From Ulota crispa (lineage: Eukaryota > Streptophyta > Bryopsida > Orthotrichales > Orthotrichaceae): a DNA stretch of 64,000 nt. Below are positions 7,710 to 64,000 of the stretch, one piece after another. The stretch spans positions 19,812,471 through 19,876,470 of the forward strand of contig OY987247.1 of NCBI GenBank assembly GCA_963920765.1. Direction: 5' to 3'. Within the stretch, counting starts at the first letter, position 1. Every line of letters begins with the position of its first letter. A program made the position numbers and the translations under genes. The notes below the pieces were generated by a model. The model did no database searches. It was not told the DNA's origin and saw nothing but the letters and a program-made list of their open reading frames with translations.

Positions 7710-8478
7710 TCACTTATCCAACCCGTCTTGAACCCCCATCAATTGGAATTGCGTGAAGTCTAAACTAGATCTTGGAGTGACACTATGACGTGTGGCTACT
7801 CTCTTATCAGTGTTGTCAACTCTGGCAAATCCACATGCCTTCAACCACATAGGTGAAGCTTGTCCGCATTCACCAGCTGTGCAATCAGATGTTTCCTTGA
7901 ACCATGAAGTGGCGCACCATGGATGGTACAGGTGCTTGCAACTGCAAAGTAGCGCATGCCAATAAGGAAAACCATCCGAGCAAACAACACAAGTTGGGGC
8001 CGGTGGCATCTCTCCAATGTCTGGCATTGACGAAATGTCAATTCCTGGTGACAGCAGAGGCACTAGGTGCATCATGCAACCAAGGTATCTAGACTAAAGC
8101 ACTGAGCGCTCTTCCTTTAAAGCTAACAAGTAATGGCTTGCAAACTTCAATTGGCAACCAGTTCTTACTTGCTCCACCACTAGAAGCCGTTTCCGCTGTG
8201 CTAGGCTAACGTGTTCCTTGAGGTTTGTGCGTAGCATGTTGTGCATGGAGCTGTCTCTGCTCACTTTATCGCACCACTTGTCCATTTCTTGGTCCTTGGG
8301 AAGGTCAATTGTAGTACCACACTTTGCTAATTGTTTGACTAACTAATCCTCCATGGCGCTGCAGAAAGAGGCCTCCTTGTAGGCGTTGTTGAGCCTTTTT
8401 GCAATGTCATCGGCCTCGTCGACAAGGCAGTCTACCTCTCCCTCCACCTTACTCAATATAGTCTCCATATTGGAATCC
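7710..8478 (-). pseudogene. Unknown protein exon with RING/PHD-like Cys/His finger
   Basis: A single leftward frame spans this stretch with two TAG stops, at 8343-8345 and 8094-8096, and ends at about 7710. After the second TAG it encodes CVVCSDGFPYWHALLCSC then KHLYHPWC and later CTAGECG, a spacing of Cys and His (C-x2-C, C-x-C, H-x2-H/C, C-x4-C) like a RING or PHD cross-brace finger, followed by WLKACGF. The first part is charged and helical in character (residues such as KWCDKVSRDSSMHN and LAQRKRLLVVEQVR). A CAAG acceptor-like site lies just upstream at 8479. I do not know the family; ubiquitin ligase or chromatin-reader roles are only analogies. Both stops are TAG, compatible with decay of CAG. 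Confidence 0.5.
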
Positions 8479-8617: not shown

Positions 8618-9330
8618 CTGGTAGAGAGCATATCAAAATCAAATGCAAGCATAGTGAAAGCCAATTGAGAGGTCGGCTTGTTTGCTTGTGGAACTTCTAC
8701 ATCAACGGGATGCCTGAAAGCCTTCTTGACATTGAGTTTGTTGTCCCCGGCCGTCCTGCCCTGGACAATAGAGTTTGTCTCCAAAGTGACATTGATGTTG
8801 CTCTTCTCTGCAAATTTCAAGTGAGTCAGCTAAGTCTTCACGCACGTCCTATAATTGCTTTGCTAGAGGTGGTTGGTGCTGGCGGCAAAGTCTGCCTAGT
8901 CTATCTATTCCCCCTTCTTGCGTTCCAAGACCCATCCCATTGCTAACTCCTTAGCAACGTGGTGAGTTGGAATCTCCTTCTGGTAAACAAGGCAGTAAAG
9001 GAACTCCACCTCTTGGCGCTCTGCAATTGTCAATTTCTTTGCCAAGCTGTAGCCATTGCGGTTCTTATTTGCCCCAAAGACGTATTCTATTTCAAAGGCT
9101 TGGATATGCTTACCCAATTTTAGTTTGTGTGGGTTGATGCCGGAGCTATTAAGCTTGAATTGCTTCTAGAAATCCTCCTTCAATAGAACACCTGGTGGCC
9201 TTTTTGACCGCATTTGAAGACCTTCAAGCATCTTCTTGCACTGGTCGGCACCATACTTCTTCTTTGCTCGCTTTATTGGAGTCTCCTAGGACCAGTTTGA
9301 CATTTCCTTTGGTTTTGGTTCATCATTACT
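8618..9330 (-). pseudogene. Unrecognised upstream exons of the Cys-rich finger locus
   Basis: Leftward frames at 9330-8905 (containing KHIQAFEIEYVFGANKNRNG and RQEVEFLYCLVYQKEIPTHH, with two TAG interruptions toward its start) and 8820-8614 (ending FDFDMLSTR at a perfect GTAAGT donor, 8617-8612). The donor pairs with a CAAG acceptor at 8479 to make a 139-base intron, linking this to the finger exon, although the phases as read do not match. No known domain. Confidence 0.4.
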
Positions 9331-9429
9331 GGTTTTCTTCAAAATGTCATATTGCCTCAAATTTGATCCTTTGTGCTAAAATGTCTTTCACACATTTGTA
9401 GTGCTAAAGTGCAAAATGATGTTACAAAT

Positions 9430-9979
9430 GTTGCATCCACTTACATATATCCTCCATAGCACCATGCAAGTGCTGGTTGACGTTCAATATTGCTAGGTTC
9501 AAGTTTCAAAAATGTAGCATCAACTCTTTTATCCAAGCCCGCACTTTGTATCCAAATATTTTGCTAATGTGCAGATGTGCTTGTTCATTGACAACTCATT
9601 TGCTGTCAAACATTTTTTTTAACGCTTGTCACATTCTCTTTTGCATTTTTTTTACTCTTGTTGTCTGTCCCTTCTCATTTCTATCTCTCTTTTGCAAGAA
9701 AGTTGTAATGTCCCCATCTTCACATGCACCCAATATGATCTCATGGTTTGCAAGTAGGCCCTTTTTGTCAACGCACTTGTACTTCATATCATTGTCATAG
9801 ATTTTATTGTCTTCATAGAGACGTGCATACGTGTCATAGTCCTTGTCATCCTCAAAATTATTGGCATTGTTTGCTCCATAGAATTTATGGAGTTGGGATT
9901 CTACTTGTAAAAGTGTATTGTAAAGCAATAAGTATGCTATGTGAGACTCACAAGTTGCCAATTTAATGAATTTTACCAA
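9430..9979 (-). pseudogene. Unrecognised coding-like frame, interrupted
   Basis: A leftward frame of 116 residues (9979-9629) continues in the same frame past stops into DSK.VVNEQAHLHISKIFG and RAWIKELMLHF, to about 9430. It is Asp/Asn/Lys-rich in the first half (NNANNFEDDKDYDTYARL). The interruptions here are TGA rather than TAG. No domain recognised; a transposon-derived protein is likely from the setting. Confidence 0.35.
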
Positions 9980-10251
9980 ACATTTAGGTTACATTTTAAA
10001 TTTGATATAAACTAATTCTAAACATATATAATTATTAAAAATACCCTCAATTCTTGAACATTGAAATTGTTATATCAACATCACAAAGTGGCAAAACTTG
10101 CTAAAGATTTGCCTACAATGTTGGTTGCAATGGTTGATATTCAAAAAACATTGGACATTTGTGGTTGTTGTGCTGGGAAACCAATTGAAGCATCTCCTAT
10201 TTGTTATTCTCAATCTCTTGTCCTTTTAAAGATCTTGCTTTGATTTCATGC

Positions 10252-10468
10252 CACTAGTAGAAAACTGCGTTGAAATCCACTAAATTATGTCTAGTTGTTT
10301 TTGTTGAGTTCCTTGTTCCTAGTGCAAATTTTTGAGTTGGAATGAGTTTTTGCATTAAAATTTTGCGGAATTTTGCCTTGTTCTACTGAATTTTGCATTG
10401 GAAACAAAGAACTCAACAAAATCAACTAGACATAATTTAGTGGATTTCAATGCAGTTTTCTACTAGTG
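10252..10468. mobile_element. CACTA-type MITE, 217 bp, with 3-bp target duplication
   Basis: Starts CACTAGTAGAAAACTGC and ends in its near-perfect reverse complement (GCAGTTTTCTACTAGTG). The inverted repeats extend about 46 bases (through ATTATGTCTAGTTG on the left). The flanks are TGC on both sides (10249-10251 and 10469-10471), the 3-bp duplication expected of CACTA. There is no coding capacity. Recent insertion is likely because the ends agree so well. Confidence 0.92.
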
Positions 10469-12454: not shown

Positions 12455-12652
12455 CAATCCAGAAGGAAACTGCCTTGGAACCCATTAAATTATGTAAGGT
12501 AATATATGTTGAGTTATGTGTTTCCAATGTAAATTAATCCTAGATAGCGCAAAATTTTGCGTCGTTCATCAAAATTTTGCGTTGGAAATATAGGACTCAA
12601 CATAAATTATCCTACATCTTTTAGTGGGTTCTAATGCAGTTTTCTATTAGTG
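12455..12652. mobile_element. Second, older copy of the CACTA MITE family
   Basis: The right end (GCAGTTTTCTATTAGTG, ending 12652) and inner inverted repeat match the element at 10252-10468: GTGGGTTCTAATGCAG against GTGGATTTCAATGCAG. The left end is worn (CAATCCAGAAGGAAACTGC). The inverted repeats continue inward with GTTGAGT on one side and ACTCAAC on the other. More divergent ends than the first copy imply greater age. Confidence 0.8.
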
Positions 12653-16355: not shown

Positions 16356-16362
16356 TGTTTAT

Positions 16363-17238
16363 GTACAGTCAGGTACTGAAGACTTACAAATTGTTAATAA
16401 AAGCTAGTTAGCTTTTTTGTTTGAACATGGTGTAAAATTGATCCGCTTTGGTAGGAAATTTATCATTGCATCCTTATGCAATACCAAGCAAGTGTACCAA
16501 ATTTCAATTCTTGAAAATTAAAACTCCATTTCTGATGAATTGTTTTGTAAGAAATTCATGGTTTTACATAGTGATTTATTGAAAAATATTAGTGATGAAT
16601 TTTCAAGACTTGATTCCACAGATATGTAGGAAACATCCATATGCACGTCTTCCATGCTAAAAAACACCCTCTTAAGTAACAAAAATTTTACTAGCAAAAG
16701 ATTCAATGAAACTTGTAACAAGCCCAAATTTTGTAAAATATATTTTTTTGTTTTTTAAGTAGCTTTTCATCAAGTACACAAAATATGATATTTGGAGATA
16801 AAAACTTAATTGCAATGTTTGAGTCAAGAAACAAAATTTTATTTTCATAGAAAAATATGTATTTTACAAAATTTAAGCCTATCACAAGTTTCATTGAATC
16901 TTTTGCTAGTAAAATTTTTGTTGCTTAAGGGGGTGTTTTTTAGCATGGAAGATGTGCATATGGATGTTTTGTACATATCCATGGAATCAAATCTCAAAAA
17001 TTCATCTCCAATATTTTTCAATAAATCATTATGTAAAACCTTGAATTTCTTACAAAACAATTCACCAAAAATGGAGCTTTAATTTTCAAGAACTGAAATT
17101 TGGTACACTTGCTTGGTATTGCATAAAGATGCAATGATAAATTTTCCTACCAAAATGGATCAATTTTACACCATGTTCAAACAAAAAAGCTGACTGAGAT
17201 ATACTAGCAATTCGTAAGACTTCAGTACCCGACTGTAC
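16363..17238. mobile_element. 876-bp foldback element with long inverted arms
   Basis: Left arm about 16363-16760 and right arm about 16830-17238 are inverted copies: GTACAGTCAGGTACTGAAG at the left end against CTTCAGTACCCGACTGTAC at the right. Shared inner landmarks include AACATGGTGTAAAATTGAT and GATTCAATGAAACTTGT. The open frames on both strands here are products of the arms, not genes. The family is unknown and no clear target duplication is seen. Confidence 0.85.
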
Positions 17239-18237
17239 ATCACATCAAATTATAGGCACAAGCTTGCCATAGACATGGAAATGAGGTTTTAAGATTGCAA
17301 TTGTACTCAATTTTAAAATTGTGTTTGCAATTGTGAATCAACGCCTCCATGGCTTAAGCATTTCTTTCTTCTTTTTTGTGGAATTAATTACATTACTTTA
17401 GACTTTCAACAATTGTTTCTAAGACCATCTCCACTGGTTGGCCAATGGAATGACACGCCATATGGCTCAGCTTGGCCCCTTTGTGGAGAATCGGCTTGTT
17501 ATATAATTCTTGTATCTACCAGATTGAATTCAAGAGGACGCGTTACAAGGTTTGGAATTAAAAGCTATGCCAAAAATAGCTACAATTTATGGATGCTCCA
17601 AGCATCTTTGCCATTGCAGCATGGAATGCTCTAGGCATCTTTGCCACAACAACATGGGCAAATCAATAGTTTACACTTTGAAGAATCAATGGCAAATAAA
17701 TTGGGGCCTCACTAACCATCAAGGCAATAAATAAAAGTGTCAGAGCCACAATTCAAGCACTTTGCAAATGAAAACTACCACGGCAGCTGAGAGTGCCTAG
17801 AGCCTTCTTTGACGCGGCTGGGCAAAAATTTGCCATCATAGTGTCTACGTTGGACACTTTAAATTAGTAACAATCCTAAGGCCATGGTAAATGACAGGTT
17901 GGAGCCAATTGGTGGAGATGCTCTAAATTTTTTGTTATCTTTCAAAACACTTCAACTTAACTGCTAAACATAAATGACAATCTTCTTTCCTTCAACAAGG
18001 ATTTTGCATTAATTGCCCCAAAGTAAGTTAGTATGCTTTAAAACCATCACTTTAAGAGCATGTATGGTTGATATTTTTTATAGCATGATTGAATTGTTGA
18101 CAAACTTTCAAAGTTTTTATGATAAACATATATTTGTGACTCTCTTGCAACTTCTAAGAAGATGAAGAGAAACCAAGGAATATGATTGGTTCTTACAATA
18201 GAATGTACATTTTCTCTTATGAAATGAAGAGCTCCAT
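17239..18237. other. No gene recognised
   Basis: Unique sequence of moderate complexity, some of it higher GC (17410-17930), without a recognisable protein or repeat end. Confidence 0.45.
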
Positions 18238-23788: not shown

Positions 23789-24491
23789 ATGGAAGATCTT
23801 GACATCAATTCTACATATGCTGCTAACAAAGGTGACAATAGCTCCAATTACTCAAGCAATTATGAAGACAATGATAATAGAAACAAAGAATTCAACTATG
23901 GTGGTCATGAAATGCATACTAAGCACCATACACAAAACTTTGTAGATAATGACTAGCAGACAAAGCACCCTATTTATGAACAATGACAACTAAGCGCAGC
24001 ACATAATGTTTACAAATTTGAAGCCAAGAATAGGCGGGCTTGTAGACATATGCAACTTGAACAAAAAAAAGAGGGTGACCGGCGTTGGCAATAGGGGCTC
24101 CCAAGAAACAAACTTGCAATGGACAAGTATACAAAGAAGCCATACAGCCCTAGCTGGGTCCTTAGCATGAGGAGTTGATGCTGTTGTCAAGGAATTTAGA
24201 CCTAACAATTAGTTCTATAAAACAGCAACCTAAGTATGTTGTGAGAGAAGTTAGTGAGTGGGTCTAGCACACTTGGGAATATACTTCACCTATAAAATTT
24301 CAGTGTGTCAAAGAAGGGATTGCTAGGGGCTTAACTTTGAGGTGTGGTGACTTGATGAGGAGATTTTGTGCAAGTGAGTTGAAGCCAAAAGATGTTAGTA
24401 ATCTATTATGGTGCATGTTATGTGAGCAATTTGACAGTGCAAAAATGAAGAAGACATATGAAGATTGTAGCAAAGCAAACGTAAGTTGAAT
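23789..24491 (+). pseudogene. Copy 1 of an unknown protein module (acidic leader plus IARG/TLRC domain)
   Basis: An acidic, Asn-rich leader (23789-23956, starting MEDLDINSTY) is followed by a domain at 24190-24491: RNLDLTISSIKQQP, HTWEYTSPIKFQCVKEGIAR, GLTLRCGDL, KPKDVSNLLWCMLCEQF, YEDCSKANVS. The same order of blocks appears in the copy at 63692-63997 with roughly one third identity, so this is a real coding module. One TAG stands where the other copy has Gln (before HT). The AACGTAAGT at 24485 could be a splice donor, but the homologous end of copy 2 reads through. I do not recognise the family; it behaves like a transposon-borne or multicopy plant protein. Confidence 0.6.
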
Positions 24492-24524
24492 TTTTTTTGG
24501 GAACAACTGGTCCTTAAGAAGAGG

Positions 24525-25148
24525 TCAAAGTGCGTGAATGTTTGAGGAGGGAACTTGAAAGATCTCTAGAGTTACATGAAGTACAAGCAGAAATGACTTG
24601 CAACTAATGTAATGGAGGGGGCACTCAAAGCGTGCATCTGCGGTTAAAAGTATCATGCACTGGAGTAGACTAGTGGCATTACAAAAAGAATTAATGTGTG
24701 CCCCCAAAGAAGGAGGCATCCTAAACTTCACAACAAGTAAAATGTATGTCCCAATCAAGTTAATTGGATCTGCATGTGTTTTCAAGAGTTCCAATTCTAG
24801 ATGCATAGAAGCTCTTGCATCAAATACCATGACATTAGGAGGGCAACTAGTATAGTTAGAGACTTGCTTGCACATCCATTTGTAAAGAGCTTGATGGAAA
24901 AATTAGCATCTATGCAAGCATTGCCAAATACGATCTCTGCAGCTGATAATGCTGAAGAAACTCAAGTAGAATCTAGTACAGGTAGGCAAGAAGAAGTGGA
25001 TTTGGATGTCAATGCACTGGCAACAGTATGTGTAGATGCACATATGAAGTCTTCAATGCCTGAAGATGAATCACATCATCATGAAGAAGCAATAGCCCCT
25101 CTTGAATTGCAAATATCAATGAAAAAAACAAAGATGGCCGCACCATAG
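24525..25148 (+). other. Coding-like frames downstream of module copy 1
   Basis: Short rightward frames: 24655-24855 (ALQKELMCAPKEGGILNF, SRCIEALASN) and, overlapping in another frame, 24801-25148 with an acidic tail (NAEETQVESSTGRQEEVDLD, EDESHHHEEAIAPLEL). They may be later exons of the same locus. No domain recognised. Confidence 0.35.
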
Positions 25149-40267: not shown

Positions 40268-42412
40268 CACTAGTAGGAAATGGGGCAAAACACAATTGCA
40301 CCTTTACAACTCCCTGTCAAAAACAATTGCATGGCAACTAAAAAGAAAATTGAATAGTAAAAACGCTAATGCAGACTCTCTCAAATTGTATTGCAGTCAT
40401 GTTTACAACTACGCAAAACTATGATACAATTGCATGTGACAACATTGTCCCTCACCAATGATTTTAGTGAGTTTGCGGATGAAAATTAGTGATGTAGTCC
40501 ATTAATTTCATCATAGTTGTCTTAACTTGTCTCTTGATTCTACTGCAATACTACTCACTAACAACTGTGTTACAATTGTAATTCATTTCTTTTATTACAT
40601 TCTCTTTACTTCAATCATGTAAATGAATTTTTGCAATTTCTTTTTGCCCTAGACAGTTGTTTATGCTTGAACTTACCTTTTTGAGGTTAGTGTGAATGGG
40701 TTATGTTGAGGTGTTGGTAATGCAGTTGTAATGTAATTGTTGTAGCATTTCTCTGCTATTGTGCGACAACTAAAGAATGATTGAAGTACAACTATATATG
40801 TTTTTAAATTCCCTAATTTTAAAAATCGTATTAAGTAACTTATTTTTGACATTCTTAGATGTCATGGGCAGCAATGTCAAATGCAATTACGCCTTTTCAA
40901 GGTCAGTGTGAATGGGTTATATTAGAGCATTGGTGATGCAATTGCAATGTAGTTATCCTAGCATTTCTACATAATTGTGGGGCAACTAAACAATAATTGA
41001 AGTACAATTGTTTTTTTTTAAAGTCCCTTAATTTTTAAATTTGGCTTAAGTAACCTATTTCCAACATTCTTAGATGTCCTAAGCAACAATGTTAAGTGCA
41101 ATTACGCCTTTTCAAGGTTAGCATGAATGGATTATGTTAGGATATTAGTGATGCAATTGCATCGTAGTTGTTCTTGGGTTTTCCTATTCATGTTTTACTA
41201 CTTAGAAACGACTGCATCACAAATATCACTCACATTTTTTTAAACTTTCTTTATTCTTTGCTCTTCTAAAATTTCCATTGCATTATTTATTACCACAGGC
41301 AAGAAGGTCAATTGCAATTATGTCTCTTGATGTCAATGTGAATGCACTCTTTTAGAGTAGTTGTACAGCAATTGCTTTTTAGTTTTTCATGAACTCTTTT
41401 TGCTACTGACTACTATTCAAATACAACTAGACTATGAGTGCCATTTTTTGGGAATTTTTTTTAAAATTTTTTGGTTTGTGTAAATTTTTATTGACATATT
41501 TTTGCGATCTTGGATAACAAATTCTATTGCAAGTATGTTTTCTAGTATAATACATTTTGTTAAAGTAATTGTATTGTAGTTACATCCTAGTTGTTTTTGG
41601 ATTCTATTTATTACTATAGTATCACTCAAAAATAATTGTATCATGACTGGCACTCATTTTATTGGCAATGGTATTTTTTTTTTTGTCCATGTAAATTTTT
41701 TTTGCGACATTTTGCTGCCAAAGCCATTAAAGTCCATTCCAATCATATTTGTGTTGTTGCTTTGCATCAAAGATGAATGATCAAAGTCTTAAAGTGATTG
41801 AATTTTAATTTTAAGAATTTTTAAACCCTTTTATATAGATAATTGTTATACAACTTATACTCCTATCCACTAACAAAACATTTAAAATTTAGAAACAATT
41901 TTTTAACAAATATTTGCAAATTCATAGCTAATGAATCTTTTGTTGAAAAAAGTTTAAAATTTCTAATTTCTGTATAAGCATATTATTTTTTTTGAAGACT
42001 TTTTTTACATATTAACAAACCTTTCATGTTTTTAACATTTATTATGTCAATCATTTTTTTTTTAAATTTTCCATTTAAAAAAATACAATATTTAGATTAA
42101 TTTCCATTTTCAACTTTTACATTTTACAAATATGTGATCTTATTGATTAAAACATAGTTTGCAAAGTCAAGCATCGCAAACCTCATTGCATATTGCCAGT
42201 AGTAATTGCTTTATAATTGCATTCGTTTCAATACCATTCTTATATTTGTGTTATAATTGATTTTGAGTTGCAAATGTAAAGTGACAAACATACAATTAAC
42301 TAAACAGTTGCATCACAATTGTAATTATTTGCAATATTATTAATTGCAACTATATCCTAATTATTTTACAGCTGTAAATAAGTGGTAATAAGCATGCAAA
42401 CAAATAAACTAG

Positions 42413-42830
42413 GGAATTGATATGTGCACATCCAAGGTTTGATATATGTCTACTTGAAGGGGGGGCAAATTTTAGATATTTATCATCAATAAGCAGAATT
42501 TGGAAAGTTCAAATTCAAACTTCAATTTGGAGACCTTGATTTAGTCTGTATCCACAAAGAAAGATAGAAATAAACAATGCCTAGTAGAATGGCTTAGTTA
42601 AGGGGCAAATTATTATTTTTACCCTTGTTTATAAAAAAACTAAACATTTCCATTGGGCGTTGTTCAATTGTATCATTCTTTGTAGCTCTAGGCAAAATCA
42701 AGATCTCTAAGTCCAAATTTGAAATCAAACTTTCCAAATTCAACATTTTGATGATAAGTATCTAAAATCTAGCCTCCCTCCCCCTTTAGATGTGCATATA
42801 TCAAACCCTGGATATGCACACATCAATTCC
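42413..42830. mobile_element. 418-bp MITE with TIRs over 100 bp, nested in the CACTA element
   Basis: Termini GGAATTGATATGTGCACATC and its counterpart GATATGCACACATCAATTCC; matching continues through GGTTTGATATATG and AGATA.TTATCATCAA to GAATTTGGAAAGTT. The immediate flanks ATAAACTAG and ATAAACAAT agree at 6 of 9 bases, hinting at a worn 9-bp duplication as in Mutator-like elements. Confidence 0.8.
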
Positions 42831-44441
42831 ATAAACAATTGCACTATAATTATCAGTGTTCAACTTAATAATATTTAAAGCTTTCAATAAAAATTATGAT
42901 CATTAATACAAAATCCATATAATTTTTTATGATTACCCTGCTTGTTTTCAAATTAGTTTTTCTCACAAAAATTATCTTCACTAAAAACTACCTATTTCCT
43001 TTCATATTAATTTAAAAACATATTCAAGTATTAGTATAGGCTTTTAAAATTTAGATATTAAGTCTAAATCAGTTATGATTGTGATCTAAAATTTACATAA
43101 TTTTTTTTGCATATTAATAAATTTTAATAAGTATAAATTAAAACATCACTAATAGCACTATTATTTAATTATGCATTTTTATTTGTTAAATTTATTAACG
43201 TGAAGCTTCAAAAATCTCAATTTAGTAAATAGTAATGTTAACTGGATTTTTGTATGTTAAATTAATAATAAAGGAAACGTAAAATATGGTGAGTTCATTT
43301 TAAAACAAGAAAAAATTACTTTGAAAAATTTCTTAGTATATTGAAAATTTTAATTAATTATGTTGTTTTAGAATAATCAACCAATCAACTTCTCAAAAGC
43401 AATTGCCATTGATTTAAGTTAATTGAAATTTTTGTAATTGATAAACTATTGGCTTTATTTATCAAAATCAATTTTCTAAATGTTCTAAATTTCAAATTTT
43501 TCCAAAAAAATAATTTGAAGTTCTAAAAGGTTTAAAACTATATGTGTGTTTTAAAAAAATAATATTGAAATAATTTAAAAACACTTTACAATAGATTATA
43601 AAGTTCATTTAATCCAAAAATAAAATCATGTATTAGCCCAAATTATTAATTGAGAGTTATGCATTCTCTAAAATTTATCTTTGTTCTTCTAATTTTTTGG
43701 AAAATCACAAAAAGTATTAATTAAATGCTTTAGTTAAAAAAAATTCAATTTAGATATGTAGAAGATATAAAGCAGTTACTAATTTCATAACAATGTTTGA
43801 ATTTAAATGCTACTTTATTAACTAAAATTCAAATGCAATTAATGATTGTAATAAATGAATTAAAAGACATGCAAGTATGAAACTATCGCAAATTTAGTTT
43901 GCCCCTTTTTAAATTGTATTTCGAAGTTTAATCACCTTAACCTTGTAGTGTACTTCAAATCTTACAAAAGGCTAAATTAGATTGCAATAGCAATATTAAA
44001 AGAAGCAATATCACTAAAAGTTTATAATTAATGATTTTGAAAGGTTAAATGAATTAGGTTCCAAAAAACGCTAATATTACCAATAATTTTAGTTATTTTT
44101 TGAAGATAGAAGATCTAGAGTACAAATTTCACTTCTTCCAAAATAATTCACTAGATTCAAGTATTAAATATTAGAACTTCAAAAATCGCAAACTAATTTG
44201 TTTTTATGCTTCACAGTTTAGATTTTAAAATGTAAGTAATTCATTTTGAGGTAAAAATGTGTTTTAAGTACATTTGTTATGTTAAATTTGCCAAAAACAC
44301 ATTGTCCTTGGAATTATAAAAGCATGCAACCCTAAAATTGGATTGTATTTTTAGACTTAATCACTTGAAGAAAAATATGCAATACATGACTATGCTGCAA
44401 CAACTATACAACAACTGCACAATTGTAATAAAATTATTTTG

Positions 44442-44565
44442 CAGTTGTTTCACAGTTGTTTCACAGTTGTTTCACAGTTGATTCACAGTTGTTTCACACT
44501 TGTTTCACACTTGTTTCACACTTGTTTCACAGTTGTTTCACAATTGTTTCACAATTGTTTTATAG
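44442..44565. repeat. 11-bp tandem repeat, about 11 copies
   Basis: CAGTTGTTTCA repeated with drift (CACTTGTTTCA, CAATTGTTTCA). It is part of the right subterminal array of the CACTA element. The rightward frame MFHSCFTVDSQLFHTCF is only this repeat translated. Confidence 0.93.
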
Positions 44566-46589
44566 TCATTTAGTTTTTGTACAGTTCTGGGGAGTTGTTT
44601 ATTGCTTGTTTTCTTCTAGTGAATGTGGACTCTTGATTCAAGTTAGGGTTTGTAGTTTGGAAGGTGGAGATGTGGCCGCCACCCTTGAACCCTAGGATCC
44701 AAGGATAAAAAGGCTTGGATGGTTCCTCTCTTCCACTCATTCTTCTCACTTGTAAGGCAAAGCTATGCCAAGATTTTTTTGGGAATGAAAGTCCCTTCTC
44801 TTTTGTATTAGCTTGTTTCATTTGCTTGCTATAAGTTCAAATTTGATCTTTATTTTTTGAAATTTTTAGGGTTCTTCCTTATGCTAGTAGCTTTTCAATG
44901 ACACCAAGCACTTTGGATTTTGAGTTTTGAGGAGTTTTTGGTAGAATTTCTAATAGAAGGATGTTTACTACAATGGCAATTTTCAACCCAACTTCAAAAA
45001 TCTACATCTTGGTGAGTTTTAGCTCAATTTTTGTGCAAGTTTGTATGCTAGATATGTGGTAGAGTCTAGTTTTTGAAAAAAAAACTAAAACCCTTATCTT
45101 GAATTATTAGTGAAGTGTTGATTGCTTCTTGAATGCATAGTGGTTTTCAACTCTATGTGTGCAATGAGGTAACTTTTAGAAAACTATATCTCATTGTGTA
45201 TATAGAATCTTGTGATGTGGCTTATATGGTTGCTAATCCTTGTTGATCTAAATTTTAGAAGTGGTTTTTTGCAACTTTTAGGTTCATTTTGAAGTTTTGA
45301 CAAGAGTTCAAAGAAATTAGGGTTTTGTGCTTATATCATACTATTAGCAAGAGTTTGCAATTTATAGAAGCACAATGTGCAATTAGAGTGCAACTACAGT
45401 AGATTTTAGGATCTAGGTTAATTCCTATTGCAATTGGTTTGCAATTAAATTTCAATGTATTGACTACCAATTTTTGCAAATAATTTGTGACATTGTCGAA
45501 ATTGGTTGACAATTGTATTGCAATTGGTTATCAATCGTGCTATAATTGTAGCATAACTGTGTTGCACTGATGATTCATCCCTTTACAAGTGCTTTACAAT
45601 TGCATTATAGCTACATTACAATTGCGTTACAACTACATTACAACTACATTGTTGGATTTTCATGTGAAACTTTTGGATTACAATTGAAGAACAATTGAAA
45701 CTTGTTAATTGTTTATTGTTGTATGGTAGTTGTACACATGATTGTAATTACTTAGTGTACATTTTCCTACAAAAAATATTTATAACAAAATAAATAAAGA
45801 ACAAGTAAAATAACTACAAAGTACCTATTAAAATAGTCAAATATCAATATTTACAAAATTAGTGTAAATAATCACAGTACAACTACACCACAATTACACT
45901 ACAATTGCATTACAAATGTGCTACAATTATAAAACAACTAAACTACAAGTATACAACAATTACATTACAACTATATATCAACCATAATACAATTGCATTA
46001 CACAATCACAATACAACTACAATACAACTAAACATTATATACACATAAACCAAAGTACAACCAGATTACAACAATACAATAATTTATTACAACTTGACAA
46101 CAACTGCATAATAATTGCACTATAATTGCATTACAATTGTCTTGCAACTATCTTACAACTGTGTCTGACATGTGTCATATTTTTCAAAAAAAATCTAAGT
46201 AAAAATAATAATAAAAATTTGATATTAACAAATGAAAATTTGACATATGTCATAGGTGAGTCCCTTTGACAAGTATGTATGAGAGGGATTTTACTGCAAC
46301 ATTAGGAACCATGCAAAAGATTTTTTGGCTACAAAGGAAAAAGAATGGCAAGGGGGCTGAGGTAGTGAAAGTTTTGAAGGGTAGAGGATGATTTTCATAC
46401 AGATGAAATATTTGCAGTTGTAAAAATGTGTCTTCACTAAAATAAGTCCAAGAATGACTAAGAAGTGACTATAAGACAATTGCGTTAGTGATACAACTGT
46501 TGGGAGTCATTTAAAAGTCATGCCATGTCCTTTACAACTCTTAAGCAGTTGTAAAATGATAGTTGTCTTTTCCCCCAACTCTACTAGTG

Positions 46590-51904: not shown

Positions 51905-51922
51905 CAAGTTTTTCTACTAGTG
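51905..51922. repeat. Isolated CACTA-type right end
   Basis: CAAGTTTTTCTACTAGTG is a typical CACTA terminus reading outward (CACTAGTAGAAAAACTTG on the other strand). The matching left end was not found nearby. Confidence 0.4.
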
Positions 51923-54825: not shown

Positions 54826-54882
54826 TCTTGGCTCACAAGCTCACTGCTCACCGCTCCCTCAATAGCGTCATTGCCCCATGCT
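54826..54882. repeat. GCTCA-word cluster
   Basis: Several GCTCA/GCTCAC words within 57 bases, like those inside the ends of the element at 25.5-28.7 kb. It lies just past the 3' end of the tnp2 relic and may be its subterminal repeat. Confidence 0.4.
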
Positions 54883-57182
54883 CATAAATATTGGTGCCAG
54901 TCTGACAAATAGGCTAGTCACGTATTTTGATGTTGCCATCAAAATCCGCCCTCTCAGTCTTCCATGGGTGAGTTTCTGGCAACCACCTCCAATGCCCCAT
55001 ATACAACATCTTGTCTGCCTCAATCAAATGTTCAGCAATAGTTTTTGGACCAGAGACAGGACAGCCACCATATCCTTTGCTAGCTTGTTTAGAAACCAGA
55101 ATGTACGCCGGAAAATCATTAATGGTCCATAGCAAAATTCCTTTGAGTTTGAATTGTTGCTCTGGTCCCACGGGTTTGGACATGTCAATTGCAAAGACCC
55201 CCCTCCACAGCTTCTTCAGGTCATTAACCAATAGATGTAGAAAAACATCAATGTGGTCCTCTGTTGGTGATGATGGGCCGAGCATTAACATTGTCAATGA
55301 CATGAAGAACCTCTTAGTTACTAAATAAGGGGGTAGGTTGTAAAGTACTATGAGAATGGGCCAAACACAATGTTTACTTGATTGTAAACTGTGAGGGTTC
55401 ACGCCATCTAAGGAAATCCTCATCCTGACATTCCTTTCCTCTCTTGAAAATGTTGGATATGTCATGTCAATGTGACTCCACTATGGACTGTCTACAATAG
55501 ACCTCATTTTACTATCACGTGAATGGTTGTTTTTATGCCAAGTTAAATGTTTGGCAATTTCAAGACATCTATACAACCGTCTTAATCTTTTGATGATAGA
55601 GAAATACCTCAAAACCCTAACCAACACTGTCTTAGACCCCTAAAAGTATTGTGATTTCTGGCATGCTGGACAATCAACCAGATCACTTTTCTCTCTCCAG
55701 TACAACATTTGATCGCATTCATAGCAGTGAATGGTCTCATGTGCCAGTCCAAGTTTCATGAGGAGGCTCTTAAGATCATACAAGTTCTTAGAGCATTTGT
55801 TCCTTGCTGGTAGAACATTGTACTTCAAAAATTTAAGGATTTCATCCAAGCATCAATGACTCACTGAGAATAAAGTGCAGAGCACCATGATCACTACTCT
55901 AAATTGTAAGCAACTTGTAGTGGCTCTAGGGTATAACAGCTCACTTGCACTACTCATGAGGGACTCTAGGAGGTCGCTGTGGTGGACGTCTCCTTTGCTG
56001 CAAACAAGTCATTGAAATTGACAGCAGTGCCATTGTCTTCAAAGCCTGACTCATGAATTTTGTCGGCCCTAGTGAAGAAATTTTGCACCATGTCCTCTAG
56101 GTGAACATTCGGGTTGGCCTGTTCATCCTATGAAGAGTGGGAATTGTCATTTTCAATAAAGGTGTCATCCCCGGTTATAATGAGAGCACCTTCTTCTTGG
56201 TCGTCTGTGTCATCAACAGGGTACATGTCATTCACATGCAGTACATTGAAACATTTATAAGGTTAGGAGCATACATATTTGAAAACATTGATTCATACTC
56301 TGGATAGTATGATGAAGCACATTAGCAACATAATTTATTTTTTAATTGTTCATACTTCATGATTTTCATTTGGAGACTATAATCATTCAGTGATAGTAGA
56401 ATCTGGAGTGTCTTTGCTTATTACATACACAATAACAAGGAATGAACAATTTTGAATACCATGTATGAACCACTGAAGATGTGAACGTCAATTATTAAAT
56501 GCAATTCCTTATTTTCAGATGCCTTACATATGTAATAAGGCAGTATTGCAAGTAAATTATCAACGTAACAAGTGGTGATTCTGACAGAGTACACTTAGAC
56601 AACTTGGAATTGCATTATTTATTGTTGCAAGTAATCGTTATTGACAAGATTATGAAAATTAAAATATGGTAGGACTATAATTAGAATTTCATTGATTATG
56701 AAAGCATATGTGCTCATATTATCATGTCTGGCACTATAAATTATACAATGTTGTATTGGATTTGAGAGTTGTTATATACAAATGCTATGTCTCATTAACA
56801 AAATGCAAGATCTTTATATCATGAATAATGACAATATTCACAAACACAAATCACGTAATAATTCAATTGTTAACCTATTACCATTTTCATACACATTGCT
56901 GGATTTTTTATTCGTACATTATTGAAGTATAGGAGTATATCTCAATTGACTTAATTACACAATGTGGTGAACAAATAAGTAGAACATTGATGTACTCACT
57001 AAGAGAGGGTCAACCAAAAATACATCTAAATTGTAAAGTCAATGGTGATGTTGCACAACGTGGCGTTGCTGAACTATAAGTCCATGGCACTTCAGGCATT
57101 TGCACGTATATCTCTTGAGTCCTTCTTGGCACGCTATAGCACATTCAATGTGGTAAGCTTGATTTAGACGCAAAGTATCCAT
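54883..57182 (-). pseudogene. CACTA (En/Spm) transposase Tnp2 relic
   Basis: Leftward. An N-terminal piece from ATG 57182 has a Cys/His finger-like segment (ECAIACQEGLKRYTCKCLKC). Next come acidic pieces (56240-55980) and LLYPRATTSC. 55849-55640 encodes NKCSKNLYDLKSLLMKLGL and HCYECDQMLYW..KSDLVDC, the zinc-binding block that precedes the core. 55465-54914 encodes the Transposase_21 core start: RISLDGVNPHSLQSSK, WPILIVLYNLPPYL, GPSSPTEDHIDVFLHLL, LLWTINDFPAY, GGCPVSGP, MGHWRWLPETHPW. This order is diagnostic of Tnp2. The rest of the catalytic region is missing and several stops and frame changes interrupt it, so it is inactive. Confidence 0.9.
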
Positions 57183-62577: not shown

Positions 62578-63309
62578 GTAAGTCAAGTGCGCACATTGGT
62601 AAGGAAGACTATAGTTGTAATTAAAAGATATAATAATTCATTTCCATCATTTGAACTTATATATGATGTTTGGTACCAAAAACTATTTACCTAAAGCTGA
62701 TTGACCATACTCTATGCTTATGTAGTATCTATTAGGCATAATTTTTTAGTAAATATTGTCCTAAGTATGGAATATCTTTTTGTTGTTGAAGAGTGTTTGA
62801 ATAATTATCTAGATTTCATTTGAACTCTTACATCTTTTATATTGAGGTTGGTGTATGTGAAATTGTATCAGAACTGACGAAATTAAAGTTGGATAGTGTT
62901 ATTTAAGGGGAACTGAACTATAGCATTGAATAGTCAATTGTATTCCCGTATTGAAAGTTCAAGTTAAAAAAAGGAAAGGAAATAAAGTCCTGTAATCAAA
63001 AAATGCCAGAGATACTACTAGAGTTATAATCAATCTCTTTTGGACTTGGTGAAAGGATATTCTTTGTACAAAGAGTGAGATTTTGGTTTTTCAATTGGAA
63101 TGTGATTGGAATAAATTATAATGGAAGTGAGAGTTTGCTAATGACTGGATTGCAATACATTACATTAATTTTTTAGATACTCTATAATACTAAATAATGT
63201 ACTTGTTATACATATTGCATGTCTATTTTTTGAGTGTTAGATTTCATTTAGTTTATCAAATTTTTTGTGTTTTATTCTAATATATGTTTTGAATAAGTAT
63301 GAAAAGCAG

Positions 63310-64000
63310 GATGAAGACAGCAAATTTGTATACCAACCTTATTACAAAGGCAATGAAAGTAACCGTTTTCAAGGTGTATACATGAACAAACCTTACCCTG
63401 AAGATGAATTGGTATATCATGATGGAAATGAAGATCACGATGGACAGGATGAAACACAGAAGGATCGGGACTTGCAGTATCAGGAAACTCGACTACCACA
63501 TGCAATAACTACAAAACATGAAGTGGAAAAGCGTAGGATTAGAAGACAATCACAAGCTGCTTGAAGGAAAGAAGGTGCGCAGCATTTATGAGAGGGTCTT
63601 ACATGGCATTTTTTAGAAGTAGACAAATATTCCAGAGAGCCTTGCGGTGATAAGGTCGGAGATTGGAAAAAAGAACTAAAGCTATTGCCTAGGAGACCAG
63701 ACCTAGCCATAGGGAATATAAAACACCAACCACTACCAGCCCTTAAGGAAATAGAGCAATCGATTCAGCATACCTAGGAATATCAATTCCCTATGAGATT
63801 TGAAATCATAAGATTTGCCATTGCTAGGGGTGTGACATTGAAATGTGTGGAGTTGTTTGAGGCAATCCACTTGAATATGTCAAGACTAGAGGATGTGAGT
63901 CTTGTTTCATGGAGCAACATGTTGAACAAAATTAATAGCCCGTCCTACACTCAAAAATCTAGGGATTGTAGCAACGCAAACGCAAGCTGCAAGAATTTTG
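63310..64000 (+). CDS. Copy 2 of the unknown module (acidic leader plus IARG/TLKC domain), cut by window end
   Basis: The acceptor AAAGCAG at 63309 follows a phase-0 donor at 62578, giving a 732-base intron. The leader is charged (DEDSKFVYQPYYKGNESNRF, EDELVYHDGNEDHDGQDE, then basic RRIRRQS), ending at TGA 63562. In another frame, 63692-63997 encodes RRPDLAIGNIKHQPLPALKE, FPMRFEIIRFAIARGVTLKC, SRLEDVSLVSWSNMLNK, SRDCSNANASC. It aligns along its length with copy 1 at 24190-24491 (shared IARG.TL.C, DVS..W..ML, DCS.AN.S). One TAG replaces Trp of HTWEY. Function unknown. The frame change at 63562-63692 may be an intron or a break. Confidence 0.55.

Follow-up and report, generated by a model that had tools for sequence, protein, structure and literature searches.

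A protein module present in the 64-kb stretch of Ulota crispa DNA analysed here (the window; G000:C6:19812471-19876470 in a genome of 274.8 Mb and 157 contigs) is probably the core of a TnpA-like second protein, encoded by a large, old and diverse family of CACTA (En/Spm) transposons in a gene that points away from the transposase gene. The preliminary description of this DNA had proposed an accessory protein of a multicopy transposon. That proposal is supported by transposase (TNP2) genes lying beside the module in a fixed divergent geometry and by a CACTA terminus on one side of the element.

Module copies in the window and across the genome

Direct reading of the window revealed two module copies on the + strand with common ordered blocks, which in copy 1 run EL.LLS..LDL.I..IK.QP ... 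HTWEY ... IARGLTLRC ... DVS ... DCSKAN.S. Two-sequence blastp with X at stops gave an ungapped alignment of 118 residues, 34% of them identical (E 2e-23). A module profile was built from 15 fetched relatives, with window copy 2 excluded; it recovered both copies and a third one. As a control, 20 windows were shuffled within blocks of 200 bases, and the profile found nothing in them at E up to 10. These results confirm that the blocks reported for the two loci are truly shared. The copies and their adjoining parts are as follows, with profile E values where a match was obtained:

23789..23953, + strand: leader of copy 1, acidic and Asn-rich (D+E 0.20, N 0.20), in a frame that differs from the module's
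24061..24522, + strand: module copy 1, stop-broken (3.5e-46)
24437..24769, + strand: C-terminal part of copy 1, shifted into the next frame (8.1e-8; covers profile positions 151-193)
63298..63498, + strand: leader of copy 2, acidic (D+E 0.25)
63550..64000, + strand: module copy 2, stop-broken (3.5e-53)
9314..9670, - strand: third module copy, strongly degraded (1.5e-11)
9671..9988, - strand: leader of the third copy, Asp/Asn-rich and open, within the ORF at 9629-9988

Both loci had been described as encoding stretches of about 100 residues preceded by an acidic, Asn/Asp-rich leader. The leaders are present, that of copy 1 in another frame, and the two stretches do carry the same module, but both are broken by stops and copy 1 is also frameshifted. 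The extent assigned to the module was too short: it is longer, and the domain of copy 2 continues past the window end to about G000:C6:19876604 (locus L001). The start given for copy 2, 63692, falls outside the module's frame. All three window copies carry stops or frameshifts and are dead remnants. At the DNA level, copies 1 and 2 are 54% identical over 354 bases, with identities of 0.58, 0.61 and 0.43 at the first, second and third codon positions. Third positions are thus the most diverged, which indicates that the module sequence was kept as protein and bears out the coding history deduced earlier from protein similarity combined with DNA divergence.

The supposed duplicated pair proved to be part of a family. 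With a 76-residue query from copy 2, we obtained at least 113 genome matches at E up to 0.001, both window copies included, of which at least one pair represents two pieces of a single copy. Apart from the query itself, these matches share 29-63% identity, and some belong to open frames as long as 437 residues. A second search used a distant relative (L031) as query and considered the best 150 scored of 276 candidates. It separated a younger branch at ~50-100% identity from an older branch at 23-38%, with some short intermediate pieces.

In open copies, the module forms the middle of a ~210-residue domain that extends from a basic RRERR-like stretch to RDKGYGGRSKK, and I194, W224 and G254 (numbering of member L012) are invariant across 16 aligned members. 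The domain is followed in several members (L010, L021, L031) by a coiled-coil-like stretch, as judged by eye. The leaders of six older-branch members carry a net charge of -1 to -7 over 70 residues, whereas the younger protein L031 (1360-2622, - strand) has an Arg/Ser-rich leader with a charge of +11. This leader is reminiscent of the RS regions in splicing factors. When 22 stretches were compared at the protein level, none of the nine inspected contained another + strand segment within ~4 kb of the module that matched at least three other stretches.

We estimated dN/dS by the Nei-Gojobori method for seven younger copies (21 pairs). The 6 pairs formed by the four closest copies gave values of 0.61-1.49, and pairs of the remaining three gave 0.21-0.43; the 12 pairs that combine one copy from each group gave 0.33-0.55. 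The older branch is too diverged for this kind of estimate. A ratio near 1 across all copies was therefore not found, as 15 pairs gave 0.21-0.55. Transposon genes typically show constraint on the deeper branches and near-neutral evolution at the tips: working copies are selected and dead ones drift. Judged from these sequences, the pattern of the younger copies appears as expected for such genes.

Position relative to the transposase gene

The hallmark transposase of the CACTA superfamily, TNP2, was found beside the module. In the window, the Transposase_21/TNP2 model (PF02992) matches positions 54914-55480 on the - strand at 9.9e-53, and tblastn extended this match to the following feature:

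54872..56017, - strand: remnant of Transposase_21 (TNP2), interrupted by in-frame stops and paired with copy 2

The remnant lies 8.26 kb upstream of copy 2 on the opposite strand. No such remnant was detected near copy 1 within the window by tblastn with 11 TNP2 queries.

We then compared module and TNP2 positions genome-wide, taking the best 150 scored of 596 TNP2 candidates. Among the TNP2 matches listed, 54 of the 113 module matches have a TNP2 within 15 kb; the other 59 have none within that distance among these best 150 of 596. In 52 of the 54 cases, window copy 2 included, TNP2 lies upstream on the opposite strand at a distance of 6.7-14.7 kb (median 7.94 kb), and in the remaining two it lies upstream on the same strand. 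In 1000 random placements of 113 copies, with rounded approximate sizes for contigs C7 and C11, the number of copies that had any TNP2 within 15 kb averaged 2.6 and never exceeded 10. With four geometries taken as equally likely, a binomial test gave 4e-29 for copies that share ancestry and hence are not independent.

The younger branch shows the same arrangement. The younger set comprised 34 matches of the L031 search at ≥50% identity, one per copy, after seven second fragments had been dropped and matches below 50% excluded. Ten of these have a TNP2 within 15 kb among the TNP2 matches listed, and nine of the ten are divergent; in the tenth, TNP2 is on the opposite strand but downstream. Module-TNP2 spacing is 9.04-9.17 kb in four close younger copies. 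When the older and younger sets are added, 64 module copies have a nearby TNP2 among those listed, and in 61 of them the two genes are divergent. The expectation that many copies would lie next to transposase genes was thus borne out in both query sets, in one divergent geometry.

Two further domains occur downstream of TNP2 on its own strand. DUF4218 (PF13960) matches at 3.6e-30 in locus L058, with 104.6 bits against a cut-off of 27. DUF4216 (PF13952) matches at 8.9e-5 in locus L060, its 23.4 bits lying below the cut-off of 30.6.

Borders of the element

To delimit the element, we used a younger copy on contig C5, whose DNA homology with seven other close copies spans the start of locus L031 and all of locus L057. 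The homology ends within locus L059: matches to six of the seven close copies start at positions 1649-1663, and C2 has an additional match of 134 bases that starts at position 1657. This comparison considered the best 40 of 4117 candidates scored, and the seventh close copy (C4) is absent among the matches listed. Position 1657, which lies 6.6 kb past the 3' side of the module, begins CACTAGTAGAAAAATTTGC. In the younger subfamily, the element is thus bounded on the module side by CACTAGTAGAAAA, at which the homology of six other copies also stops. A repeat of ~918 bp (L059 149-1067), present at 89-94% identity in more than 30 places among the same best 40 of 4117, lies ~0.6 kb outside this border.

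On the TNP2 side, the homology extends via L058 and L060 to at least 17266200 on C5. Measured from the L059 border, the younger element would therefore exceed 23 kb. No complete module-bearing element with both CACTA ends and a target duplication was delimited, the TNP2-side end presumably lying beyond the sequence compared. A 15-base pattern consisting of the terminus and its CAT flank occurs at 780 places with at most one mismatch, compared with 27 for the reversed pattern; none of the places listed by the pattern searches (2 places in all in one search; the first places of 780 in the other, with no C5 one-mismatch place among them) was an opposite end with a CAT duplication near the C5 element. 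The earlier expectation that copies would lie inside shared termini is thus borne out on the module side only, with its CACTA terminus common to six other copies.

Neither CACTA nor general inverted termini were convincing around copy 2 and four other old elements, for the latter in a search that covered ~3.7-4.0 kb beyond the module. These termini may have been missed in part because, in the younger subfamily, the element extends 6.6 kb past the module on this side.

The terminus of the younger subfamily also bounds three short elements:

Window 10252-10468: 217 bp, CACTA-type miniature with 80-nt inverted ends that are 91% complementary and start CACTAGTAGAAAACTG; 3-bp flanks TGC match
L026 7554-7728: short element with one mismatch in one end; 3-bp flanks TGT match
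L047 2969-3100: short element; 3-bp flanks AGA match

An end related to that of the first of these elements lies at window position 12652, and an exact TTTTCTACTAGTG terminus in right-end orientation occurs at 51910-51922, with no partner identified.

Several other features were noted in the window. The stretch at 40268-46589 is dense in direct and inverted 11-bp repeats of the ACAACTG type. We considered the repeats at 40.3-46.2 kb as subterminal repeats of the copy 2 element and dropped this idea, as no such clusters occur at 20 module loci. The stretch has a CACTA-like end at 40268 and TCTACTAGTG ending at 46589 (by eye), with 3-bp flanks that do not match, and could be a separate non-autonomous CACTA element. 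Nested long inverted repeats at 16361-17240, with 294-nt arms 91% complementary and 101-nt arms 86% complementary, make up a foldback-like structure. An open frame at 7710-8093 (- strand) has a sub-threshold RING finger match (PF13639, 1.7e-4, 22.2 bits against 27.3).

Relation to TnpA proteins and possible function

We searched the module against Pfam and solved structures. The window fragments had no Pfam match. In longer relatives, Transposase_24 (PF03004; gathering cut-off 28.7 bits) recurred at low scores, with E-values of 0.25 in L012, 0.018 and 0.0067 in L031 (whole protein and domain), 0.017 in L055 and 0.069 in L056. The four alignments cover model positions 1-2 to 66-67 and coincide in their location within the domain; for the whole of L031 the match extends to model position 113. 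The invariant Trp corresponds to model position 5 in L012 and L031, as counted by hand. The best scores, 19.8 bits for a 94-residue piece of L032 and 17.0 bits for L031, are below the cut-off, as are all others. The family was seen in 1 of 16 members in one scan and in 3 of 7 close relatives in another, and in none of seven reversed controls. A genome-wide PF03004 search (E up to 1) gave seven places, all of them below the cut-off. Three of these (L029, L031, L033) are clear module-family members by the A1 profile and L032 matches the module-family profile weakly (14.1 bits); L030, L034 and L035 gave no match to it.

Other families appeared at similar levels. DUF4041 was found in 3 and HVO_2248 in 2 of the 7 close relatives with E-values like those of Transposase_24, and the 16-member scan listed twelve further families, none in more than two members, with DUF7356 scoring best (0.0034, 1 of 16). 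A comparison of the module profile with solved structures produced chance-level matches (best E 0.3). AlphaFold models of the two window fragments contained helices only and were too poor to use (mean pLDDT 51.5, pTM 0.28); no DNA-binding fold was identified by the structure search or in this low-confidence model. In our judgement, the domain is likely to be remotely related to Transposase_24. The module had been called unrecognised, which remains correct in that no family exceeds the Pfam cut-offs, but Transposase_24 now provides a weak sub-threshold lead.

In maize Spm, TnpA, which binds the subterminal repeats, is needed alongside TnpD (PMC2613891), and it can act on the element's own promoter (PMC1636069). 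TnpA-type proteins are described as differing strongly between elements, and this fast divergence reportedly makes them hard to find by sequence (PMC2613891, PMC8195511). Transposase_24 is the domain by which tnpA homologues were selected in lettuce (PMC8195511) and has been described in ORF 2 of CACTA elements (PMC8978399). The module family resembles these proteins in belonging to the CACTA superfamily, in occupying the slot of the TNP2 partner, in the weak Pfam matches of some members and in its fast divergence, as reported for TnpA (PMC2613891, PMC8195511). It differs from them in staying below the Pfam cut-off in every member scanned. We assign the module to the TnpA slot because it lies beside TNP2, is constrained between clades and diverges fast outside one domain.

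The gene arrangement sets the family apart from the systems with which we compared it. In Spm, tnpA and tnpD derive from one transcription unit (PMC1636069), and lettuce has contiguous tnpD-tnpA transcripts (PMC8195511), whereas the module gene points away from TNP2. Soybean Tgmt* (20.5 kb) and snapdragon Tam1 (17 kb) are large CACTA elements, as is the present one at an estimated >23 kb, and likewise combine TNP2 with a poorly conserved DNA-binding partner (PMC2613891), DNA binding being putative for the module. In Tgmt*, however, one large gene encodes both functions, and the Tam1 arrangement is described merely as parallel to Spm in the same account (PMC2613891). SmTRC1 and related animal CACTA elements also carry TNP2 and a second protein whose sequence shows no detectable similarity with plant TnpA, but that protein comes from alternatively spliced or tandem ORFs and not from a gene on the other strand (PMC1636069). 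In the published descriptions consulted, Spm, Tgmt*, the lettuce pair and SmTRC1 hold tnpA and tnpD in one unit or gene or in tandem, and the divergence seen here differs. In the parts of the open-access literature that we searched, we found no description of CACTA genes on opposite strands; we do not claim that the arrangement is unpublished.

An unlikely alternative is that the second gene encodes an anti-silencing or regulatory factor rather than a TnpA partner needed for excision, in the manner described for the VANC proteins of VANDAL elements (PMC10398659). The location of the gene on its own strand and the failure of its domain to reach the Transposase_24 cut-off would suit such a factor, but the weak Transposase_24 placement points to TnpA. 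The two readings also overlap, since TnpA itself is described as both reactivating and repressing the Spm promoter (PMC1636069). It is very improbable that a host gene or domain was captured repeatedly by CACTA elements. These elements often capture host fragments (PMC8195511), but the position and strand relative to TNP2 are near-fixed in copies that are ~25-50% identical, too constant for repeated capture. Moreover, none of the members scanned gave an above-cut-off Pfam match to a host domain, and no single-copy host locus was seen. A chance resemblance or AT-rich compositional artefact, which could be suspected from the stop-interrupted window copies and the frameshift in copy 1, is practically excluded by the pairwise E of 2e-23, the 20 empty shuffles and the at least 113 genome matches.

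We therefore favor the TnpA-like reading, in which the element would carry two genes pointing apart. One would encode a TNPD-type transposase with Transposase_21, DUF4218 and a weak DUF4216. The other, ~8-9 kb away on the other strand, would be the TnpA-like gene, presumably transcribed and with a putative exon structure, specifying a variable charged leader and the ~210-residue conserved domain, followed in some members by the coiled-coil-like stretch. By analogy with maize TnpA, the protein most likely binds the subterminal repeats of the element, perhaps as a dimer, and once bound may help the transposase at the element ends or regulate the element's promoters.

What sets these CACTA elements apart is a second gene that is remotely TnpA-like and placed divergently. 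A broader proposal, to which we give somewhat less than an even chance, is that partner and transposase are separate, divergently transcribed genes of a deep plant CACTA branch, and that the partner domain is new and remotely related or unrelated to Transposase_24. If so, the partner would be under its own promoter instead of arising by alternative splicing. A divergent pair would mean that the two CACTA proteins need no splicing balance, unlike those of maize Spm. With at least 113 matches in near-fixed place and strand and with both old and young branches, the family lends itself to alignments from which one could study the domain, the sites it binds and how it co-evolves with subterminal repeats. 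It also provides a handle for annotating genes that would otherwise be mistaken for unknown host proteins.
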